From positions 5,890,001 through 5,954,000 of the forward strand of contig NZ_JARUBE010000003.1 of the NCBI RefSeq assembly GCF_029626035.1: DNA of 64,000 nt, read 5' to 3'. The position numbers were made by a program, and so were the translations under genes. The stretch comes from Micromonospora sp. WMMD980. GTDB lineage: Bacteria > Actinomycetota > Actinomycetes > Mycobacteriales > Micromonosporaceae. This document shows, one piece after another, positions 1,709-3,966 of this stretch (position 1 is the stretch's first letter; each line of letters starts with the position of its first letter). Below the pieces are notes generated by a model that searched no databases, was not told the origin of the DNA, and saw only the letters and a list, made by a program, of their open reading frames with translations.

Positions 1709-2878
1709 TCACTTGTCGATGTCGCCGACCACGAAGAACATCGAGCCGAGGATGGCGATCAGGTCCGGCACCAGGCACCCGGGCAGCAGCGTCGACAGCG
1801 CCTGCACGTTCGCGTACGAGGCGGTGCGCAGCTTGAGCCGCCACGGTGTCTTCTCACCTCGGGAAACCAGGTAGTAGCCGTTGATGCCGAGCGGGTTCTC
1901 GGTCCAGGCGTACGTGTGCCCCTCGGGCGCCTTGACCACCTTGGGCAGTCGGGTGTTCACCGGTCCGGAGATCCGGTCCACCCGGTCCAGGCACTGCTCG
2001 GCGAGGTCGAGTGAGGCGTACACCTGGTCGAGCAGCACCTCGAACCGGGCGTGGCAGTCGCCGGCGGTCTTCGTCACCACCGGCACGTCGAGCTGGTCGT
2101 AGGCCAGGTAGGGCTCGTCGCGGCGCAGGTCGAGGTCGAGGCCGGAGGCCCGGCCGACCGGCCCGGACGCGCCGAACGCGGCGGCGTCGGCCGCCGAGAG
2201 CACGCCGACGCCGACGGTGCGGGCCAGGAAGATCTCGTTGCGCCGGATCAGATGGTCCAGGTCCGGCATGCGCCGGCGGACCTCGCCGATGGCGGCCCGG
2301 GCGCGGCCGGTCCAGCCGGCCGGCACCTCCTCCTTGAGGCCGCCGACCCGGTTGAACATGTAGTGGATCCGGCCGCCGGAGACCTCCTCCATCACGGCCT
2401 GGATGGTCTCCCGTTCCCGGAACGCGTAGAACATCGGCGTGATCGCGCCGATCTCCAGCGGGTAGGAGCCGAGGAACATCAGGTGGTTGAGCACCCGGTT
2501 CAGCTCGGCCAGCGCCATCCGCAGCCAGGTGGCGCGCTCCGGCACCTCCATGCCCATCAGCCGTTCGACAGCGAGCACCACGCCCAGCTCGTTGGAGAAC
2601 GCCGAGAGCCAGTCGTGCCGGTTGGCCAGCACGATGATCTGCCGGTAGTCGCGTACCTCGAAGAGCTTCTCCGCGCCCCGGTGCATGTAGCCGACGATCG
2701 GCTCGGCGGCGACCACCCGCTCCCCGTCGAGCACCAGGCGCAGCCGGAGCACGCCGTGCGTCGACGGGTGCTGCGGCCCGATGTTCAGCACCATGTCGGT
2801 GCCGAGCTGCTCACCGCCGGCCCCGGTGCCGACGGTCAGCTCGCGGAGGTCACCGGCGTCCGTGGTCATGCCCGTCAT
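1709..2878 (-). CDS. nuoD: NADH-quinone oxidoreductase subunit D (solitary nuoD paralogue)
   Basis: A 389-residue NuoD/NDUFS2-family protein, the 49-kDa-type subunit that helps form the quinone site of respiratory complex I. The hallmark GPQHPSTHG sits at residues 34-42 and MHRGAEK at 65-71; the C-terminus keeps the family's GDIDK-like ending. The ATG at 2878 overlaps the TGA of the upstream methyltransferase (ATGA, 2875-2878), which implies translational coupling and fixes the start; a much longer open frame upstream is only shadow. No other nuo genes are present here, so this is a stand-alone copy. Actinomycetes usually carry a full nuo operon elsewhere and similar solitary second copies are annotated in Streptomyces (from memory). 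Whether it enters complex I or replaces the main NuoD under some condition is unknown. Confidence 0.93.
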
Positions 2879-3966
2879 CGTGCCACGAGCGGGTCGAGGG
2901 GGACGCCGACCGGCTGCCACAGCCACAGGTGCCCGCCGAGGCCGGCCGGGTCGGTCAGCTCGGCCACCGCCGACGCGGCGGCCAGCGCCCGCAGGTAGCC
3001 GGCCGGGTCCCGGGCGGCCAGGCCCAACGGCGGTCGCCCACCGTCGGCCCCGAGCGCCCGCAGCGCCGCCCGCTGCGACACCAGGGTGTACGCGCACCGC
3101 GCGACCCGCTCACCGGCGGAGGCGACCGAGTCCATGGCGACGTGCGCGGTCACGTCGCACGACCCGTCGAGGGCGGGTGGCACCTGTCGCCCGTCCCGGT
3201 AGCCGGTGACCGTCCCGTCCACCGGCCGGGCGTCCCGCAGGTGTCCGTAGTCGACGGCCAGCGCGAGCCCGCGCTCGAGCCGCCCCACCGCCTCCGCCCA
3301 CGCCTCGTCCCGGGCCCGGCCGATCTCCACCCGCGCCCCACCGCCCCCCGCCCCGCCGTCCTCGGCCGCGACGATCAGGGAGGCAACGTCCGGATCCGAT
3401 CCGCCGGCCGACACGAACTCCCTGATCATCGGGGCGGCGGCGGGTGCGGGCGGCCACCAGCGGGTCAGCCAGGCGGTGTCGTCGGGGGGGAGTGCGGGCC
3501 CCCGGGCCTCCTCGCCGGTGTCGGGATCGACCAGGACCAGGCGCCAGCCCTGCGGGGTGTGCACGGCCACGTCGAGGGGGACGTTGTCCAGCCATTCGGT
3601 GGCCAGCAGCAGGCCGGTGATCCGTGCCGGGACCTCGGGCCGCCAGTCGATCTCCGGGGGCAGGTGGTTGGGGCGGGCGGCCCGTTCCACGGCGACCGGA
3701 CGGAGCCGGGCGGCCAGCTCCGGGCCGGCCTGCGCCCGCAGCGCCCGCAGCAGTTCGCCCCGGCCCGCGCCCACGTCCACCACGTCCAGCCGGGCGGGCC
3801 GCCCCAGCGCCTCGTCCAGCGCGACGAGTTGCCGCAGCAGGCAGCCGGCGAGGACCGGCGAGGCGTGGACGCTGGTACGGAAGTGCGCGGCGGGGTTGGC
3901 GCCGGCGACGAAGAAGCCGTTCGGCCCGTAGAGCGCCCGTTCCATCGCGTCGCGCCAGCGCAGCAT
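2875..3966 (-). CDS. MidA/NDUFAF7-family SAM-dependent methyltransferase
   Basis: A 363-residue class I methyltransferase. The N-terminus has the MidA-type block with ALYGPNGFF and HFRTS, followed by the SAM-binding glycine loop [10 protein letters not shown]. The family (Pfam Methyltransf_28, formerly DUF185) includes mitochondrial NDUFAF7, which dimethylates an arginine of the complex I subunit NDUFS2, the eukaryotic NuoD. Here the gene lies directly upstream of, and overlaps by 4 nt with, a nuoD; this makes an equivalent NuoD-modifying role attractive but unproven. ATG 3966 (or GTG 3969) is preferred because family similarity begins there; the open frame runs upstream to 4158 without family features. 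It is divergent from the DUF2520 gene. Confidence 0.85.

Follow-up and report, generated by a model that had tools for sequence, protein, structure and literature searches.

Two minus-strand genes, a second nuoD (nuoD2) and midA, overlap near the start of the window, by which we mean the whole 64-kb stretch of DNA that was analysed. The genes and the features discussed below are as follows.

1709..2878, minus strand: nuoD2, encoding a short-type NuoD of 389 aa, the putative D subunit of a second complex I (open reading frame, PF00346, PRK06075)
2875..3966, minus strand: midA, encoding a SAM-dependent methyltransferase of the MidA/NDUFAF7 family, 363 aa (open reading frame, PF02636, matches to 5ztz and 1zkd)
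2875..2878, minus strand: ATGA stop/start overlap of midA and nuoD2 (sequence)
2678..2680, minus strand: CGG codon of Arg67 in MHRGAEK, the equivalent of NDUFS2 Arg85 (alignments of NuoD2 and main NuoD)
2609..2611, minus strand: codon of Trp90 in RHDW, at the position of the quinone-ligating Tyr87 of Thermus (alignments of NuoD2 and main NuoD)
3751..3777, minus strand: SAM-binding motif I of MidA, DVGAGRGEL (alignment of 38 MidA)
3586..3597, minus strand: ExLD motif of MidA, EWLD (alignment of 38 MidA)

On the minus strand, midA runs from an ATG at 3966, with a GTG one codon upstream, to a TGA stop at 2877-2875, and nuoD2 runs from an ATG at 2878 to a TGA stop at 1711-1709. The original prediction described a methyltransferase gene and a nuoD gene that overlap by ATGA, lie apart from any other nuo gene, and encode a NuoD with the equivalent of the NDUFS2 arginine, and all three points were confirmed. 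The overlap is present in the sequence, tblastn of the 64-kb window with nuo queries other than NuoF detected only nuoD2, and the arginine is residue 67, encoded by CGG at 2680-2678. No other nuo genes were seen when the ORFs of the 10 kb upstream were inspected by eye. Elsewhere in the genome, a PF00346 search found one other NuoD, in the main operon approximately 900 kb away, and a PF02636 profile search found midA to be the only gene of its family.

Both proteins could be assigned to families. NuoD2 scored 242.9 bits against PF00346 (cut-off 24) and 381 bits against PRK06075 (cut-off 360), identifying it as a NuoD, and scored below the cut-offs of TIGR01962 (394 vs 459) and PRK12322 (396 vs 522). 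It lacks the approximately 41-residue C-terminal insert of main NuoD, and the short NuoD model NF008974 and FpoD are among its best NCBIfam matches. At position 90, where Thermus has the tyrosine implicated in quinone ligation (Tyr87; PMC8042128), all 87 NuoD2 sequences have tryptophan and all 41 main NuoD sequences have tyrosine. Given this replacement, we do not claim that NuoD2 supports quinone reduction by the usual site. Trp90 was also present in the NuoD2 of genomes with a full second complex.

MidA scored 79.8 bits against PF02636, above the curated cut-off of 23.3, and gave weak but significant matches to two solved structures, the NDUFAF7 homologue 5ztz (E 2e-4) and the DUF185 protein 1zkd (E 1e-7). 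In an alignment of 38 MidA, E124, L126, D127, D239, and Y240 were invariant and D64, A67, G68, and G70 of motif I were conserved in at least 90% of sequences, with departures from motif I in certain divergent sequences such as those of loci L136 and L139. The 18 aligned MidA from lineages with a reduced second complex, described below, kept the ExLD, DY, and T-x-x-V positions invariant, with motif I departing in some. Judged from this alignment, the methyltransferase motifs are retained across relatives, in a protein that evolves fast (32-57% identity outside the genus). PF02636 matched 3 of 14 control genomes, and E. coli was not one of them. According to PMC12455994, the function of prokaryotic MidA has been inferred in silico only.

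The view of this NuoD as solitary did not hold. Approximately 307 kb from nuoD2, the same genome carries a second nuo cluster (L020) with nuoB2, C2, H2, I2, J2, K2, L2, M2, and N2, and queries with NuoA, NuoD, NuoE, and NuoG gave no match in the 19.9 kb fetched there (NuoF was not queried). The genome thus contains a second set of B, C, and H to N with exactly one matching D outside it, NuoD2 being the only NuoD besides that of the main operon. From this gene content, NuoD2 most likely supplies the missing D subunit to a second complex I that has no NADH module. A free spare copy of NuoD was considered and rejected because of the D-less cluster in the same genome.

Between nuoB2 and nuoC2 of the second cluster lies an ORF piece (L020:7148-8752; G000:C3, approximately 6.200-6.202 Mb), which we take to be DUF2252-like. 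The genome also contains a third partial nuo-like set (L021; G000:C3, approximately 2.77-2.79 Mb), with K, L, M, and N types detected by tblastn, a NuoH detected by PF00146, and A- and J-like ORFs recognized by eye. This set adjoins an ORF that resembles cytochrome c oxidase subunit I, and a PF00346 search found no NuoD in it.

We then asked how consistently the two genes occur together. Among 61 relatives, including the window's genome, NuoD2 and MidA were each found in 47 and both in 46, with NuoD2 alone in one genome (G044) and MidA alone in another (G041). Within the genus, 36 of 37 genomes had the pair, with MidA sequence no more than approximately 250 bp from NuoD2 on one contig, so the pairing is not absent in close relatives. 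In two drafts (G001, G028) an N-terminal piece of MidA sits on another contig, and neither gene was found in the 37th genome (G023; 990 contigs).

A survey of nuoD copies for a linked midA bore out the pairing across the class Actinomycetes. In 246 genomes, NuoD2 was detected in 99 and MidA, by PF02636, in 91; 86 genomes had both, 13 NuoD2 only, 5 MidA only, and 142 neither (Fisher p ~1e-45 for co-occurrence, on counts that ignore phylogeny). NuoD2 was called from full-length, unsplit matches, with two partial sequences (G080, G154) and a distant one (G194) counted in. At the family level, NuoD2 occurred in 28 families and MidA in 27, with 24 families having both. The two genes were on separate contigs in seven of the 86 pairs, and 78 of the 79 same-contig pairs lay within 10 kb of each other, the maximum being 11 kb. 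MidA was upstream on the same strand in 61 of these 79 pairs and on the opposite strand in 18, of which 16 belong to a Streptomyces-like family (f33).

A lineage-specific profile revealed MidA beside NuoD2 in four more class genomes (G079, G185, G247, G227), raising the pairing to 90 of 99. MidA was undetected in the other nine NuoD2 genomes of the class (G074, G141, and G154, as well as G173, G184, G194, G214, G234, and G259, which are 95-99% complete), and Arg67 was present in all eight of the MidA-negative genomes with a readable site. Of the five class genomes with MidA and no detected NuoD2, four are 72-80% complete and one (G127) is 94% complete. In a scan of named genomes, MidA lay within the fetched flank at 76 of 80 loci (best 80 of 583); three of the four loci without MidA are short contig pieces, and the fourth (L233) is not. 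These best 80 of 583 included loci from Streptomyces and its relatives, Embleya, Actinoallomurus, Aeromicrobium, and a Nanopelagicales MAG, among others. All 80 carried HRG.EK and RHDW, in a scan whose patterns themselves required RHDW or EKL.E.RDY.

In one class genome, G185 (60 contigs, rated 100% complete), NuoD, NuoB, and NuoH were each detected once, and each belongs to the second type. Its second-type complex I (loci L163 and L071) is the only complex I detected there, with MidA near NuoD2. This genome is a natural test case for whether a second-type complex I can respire alone.

Linkage of MidA and NuoD2 is looser outside the class. Of 149 genomes surveyed across the phylum, 49 had MidA, including 43 that fall outside the class. 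Inspection by eye placed a NuoD2-like gene on the MidA contig in 22 of these 43, within 10 kb in 20 cases, and the remaining 21 showed no such gene on that contig. In G376, the MidA and NuoD2-like genes are on different large contigs and truly apart. Opposite orientations of midA and nuoD2 recur outside the class, and many NuoD2 loci there sit in A-B-C-D-H-I operons, which suggests that the detachment of nuoD2 to midA is probably derived. All 29 NuoD2 loci of the phylum survey (24 outside the class) had both the arginine and the tryptophan; MidA was present in 16 and undetected in 13, and the arginine was kept in all 13. Since MidA-negative genomes of both the class and the phylum survey keep this residue, we rejected a strict rule of arginine only with MidA. 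Its persistence does not require MidA, and it is useful without methylation, as in E. coli.

The residue at position 67 distinguishes the two NuoD proteins. Main NuoD has threonine at this site, in the motif LHTGIEK, in all 41 sequences read, of which 21 come from genomes that also have NuoD2, while NuoD2 has arginine, preceded by histidine, in 87 of 87; an arginine substrate at this site is therefore possible only in NuoD2. In the sequences read, the threonine excludes equal modification of the nuo-operon NuoD at residue 67, an outcome that would have counted against the original prediction. A reciprocal pattern was found in the B subunit, with arginine in 22 of 22 NuoB1 and threonine in 20 of 20 NuoB2, which ties NuoD2 to NuoB2 despite their genes lying apart. 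Arginine is likely the ancestral state of the family (group 4 hydrogenases), and its presence alone is thus weak evidence. In Thermus, threonine at the D site is combined with arginine in NuoB, and the two side chains fill the same space (PMC8042128). Both states of this switch, as known from Thermus and Yarrowia, are visible here within one cell, in two complexes.

The second complex I is not of the same extent in all lineages. NuoD2 was at least 69% identical to the window copy in 63 of the 99 class genomes, 57 of which have two or more NuoH, compared with only 4 of the 36 genomes with divergent NuoD2 (39-68% identity). Similarly, a close NuoB2 (E 1e-80 or better) was found in 38 of 41 high-identity genomes examined vs 0 of 33 divergent ones. 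We inspected 17 genomes with divergent NuoD2, 15 from the class sample plus the relatives G045 and G057. All 17 have nuoD2, and 16 have a compact nuoB2-nuoC2-nuoI2 set; in G285 the contig ends inside the set. The 6 to 20 kb fetched from each genome contained no additional H, J, K, L, M, or N in any of the 17, and NuoH was single genome-wide in 14 of the 15 class genomes, with two in G259. Of the 17, 13 have MidA; it was not found in G184, G194, G259, or G173. Among genes beside nuoB2-C2-I2 at 16 loci, no conserved extra partner was found: only those three were shared by all 16. Other ORF groups were shared by at most 13, and several resemble, by eye, the neighbours of the main-operon end.

These reduced sets retain their Fe-S ligands. 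The N2 cysteines were kept in 20 of 20 NuoB2, 17 of which come from reduced sets, and all 16 reduced NuoI2 carried both of their 4Fe-4S motifs. In 39 reduced NuoD2, Arg67 and Trp90 were invariant and His41 was kept in 33, while residue 142 was Glu in 4 and Asp in 5; the 48 other NuoD2 kept all four positions without exception. In reduced NuoD2, the best-conserved 25-residue window begins at residue 66 (mean 0.89 vs 0.58 overall), and the same region also leads in the other NuoD2 (0.96 vs 0.82 overall).

On this evidence, we consider it likely that MidA is dedicated to NuoD2 of the second complex I, as its protein-arginine methyltransferase and assembly factor, and the pairing of the two genes points to a bacterial counterpart of a step in mitochondrial complex I assembly. 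Human NDUFAF7 dimethylates Arg85 of NDUFS2 (PMC3829151), and the equivalent arginine is dimethylated in Paracoccus but not in E. coli (PMC3750175). We propose that MidA would dimethylate Arg67 of free NuoD2 during its synthesis, helped by the overlap of the genes, and that this methylation would precede docking of NuoD2 on NuoB2. Placed beside cluster N2 of NuoB2, Arg67 would then lock both subunits, as Arg85/Arg121 do in mitochondria. The main complex I would need no MidA owing to its opposite switch state, with threonine in NuoD1 and arginine in NuoB1. We infer the methylation, its timing, and its effect on N2 and assembly; at the sequence level, the proposal has as its basis the gene coupling, the arginine-bearing copy, the reciprocal B and D residues, the MidA motifs, and the N2 ligands.

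The original prediction of a dedicated modifier-substrate module for a second NuoD thus stands in part. It is supported by the class-wide pairing, by specificity for the arginine-bearing copy (the operon NuoD having threonine in 41 of 41), and by the retained MidA motifs, but NuoD2 is not a spare copy and its arginine is kept also where MidA is undetected. Each cell with both complexes carries a built-in control, one NuoD with arginine and a linked MidA and one with threonine, so the role of a bacterial MidA and of arginine methylation at cluster N2 becomes testable by a single gene deletion.

Linkage and co-loss could instead reflect a shared pathway in which MidA modifies another residue or protein and has NuoD2 as a binding partner. 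The five class genomes with MidA and no detected NuoD2, and the retention of Arg67 without detected MidA, fit this explanation. We consider it unlikely, however, because the known substrate of the homologous enzyme is in the same loop (PMC3829151), the best-conserved window of reduced NuoD2 begins immediately before Arg67, and the arginine is missing from the other NuoD in these cells. Functionally meaningless synteny, inherited in a neighbourhood that rearranges slowly, could account for the shared order in 61 of 79 pairs and for the 21 of 43 MidA genomes outside the class without a same-contig NuoD2-like gene, but is very improbable, since proximity outlasts rearrangement (18 of 79 pairs on opposite strands, 16 of them in f33, and again outside the class) and synteny alone leaves the correlated presence and absence within the class unexplained.

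Tentatively, and with a chance that we place close to even, we suggest that the reduced second complex I may be a soluble Q-module of NuoB2-C2-I2 plus NuoD2, a free-standing Fe-S electron-transfer complex in which the MidA-modified arginine would serve N2 rather than quinone chemistry. By the same tentative reading, such a Q-module would occur in several actinobacterial lineages without a membrane arm, an NADH module, or an intact quinone pocket, with the methyltransferase found in 13 of 17. Reduced sets, if functional, would allow the role of the arginine at N2 to be told apart from quinone reduction.

NuoB2-C2-I2-D2 might alternatively form a second peripheral arm for the main complex I, docked onto the membrane arm of the latter, as could be expected from the position of nuoB2(-C2-I2) within approximately 7 kb of the main-operon nuoN in 11 of the 17 inspected genomes. 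We regard this as doubtful in view of the decayed quinone site of reduced NuoD2, with Glu at residue 142 in only 4 of 39, His41 in 33 of 39, and Trp for Tyr in all 39. The fast divergence of NuoD2 and the lack of membrane genes beside the set would also suit decaying relics of a lost second complex I, but such decay is quite improbable given the N2 cysteines, 4Fe-4S motifs, Arg67, and Trp90 kept in every reduced sequence aligned.

The present pair and its second complex I can be compared with known systems. With NDUFAF7 and NDUFS2 Arg85 of mitochondria, and with the dimethylated NuoD Arg65 of Paracoccus denitrificans, the present pair shares the enzyme family (PF02636), the subunit, and the arginine of the HRG loop. 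It differs in that, in these actinobacteria, the enzyme gene lies beside one of the two genes for NuoD, and in that the enzyme would serve a second complex I without an NADH module. The Streptomyces nuo2 cluster and its detached nuoD2 have already been published (PMC3765725, PMC8388888) and represent a second complex I set without an N module, as is likely here, with nuoD2 apart. The word MidA is absent from the main texts of these two papers, and we found no MidA-NuoD2 link in the literature searched, a search that left most subscription journals outside. Relative to the nuo2 papers, the residue switch, the class-wide spread, and the reduced sets are described here.

The 11-subunit complex I, for example of Desulfitobacterium (PMC11238625), lacks the N module, as the second complex I here probably does, and shares a short NuoD without the approximately 41-residue insert, as reflected in the NF008974 and FpoD matches of NuoD2. 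In contrast to that complex, the D gene here is split off to midA and has tryptophan at the position of the quinone tyrosine. The switch between Thermus and Yarrowia (PMC8042128) involves the same alternatives, arginine in D with threonine in B or the reverse, whereas here both states occur in one cell and MidA accompanies the state with arginine in D.
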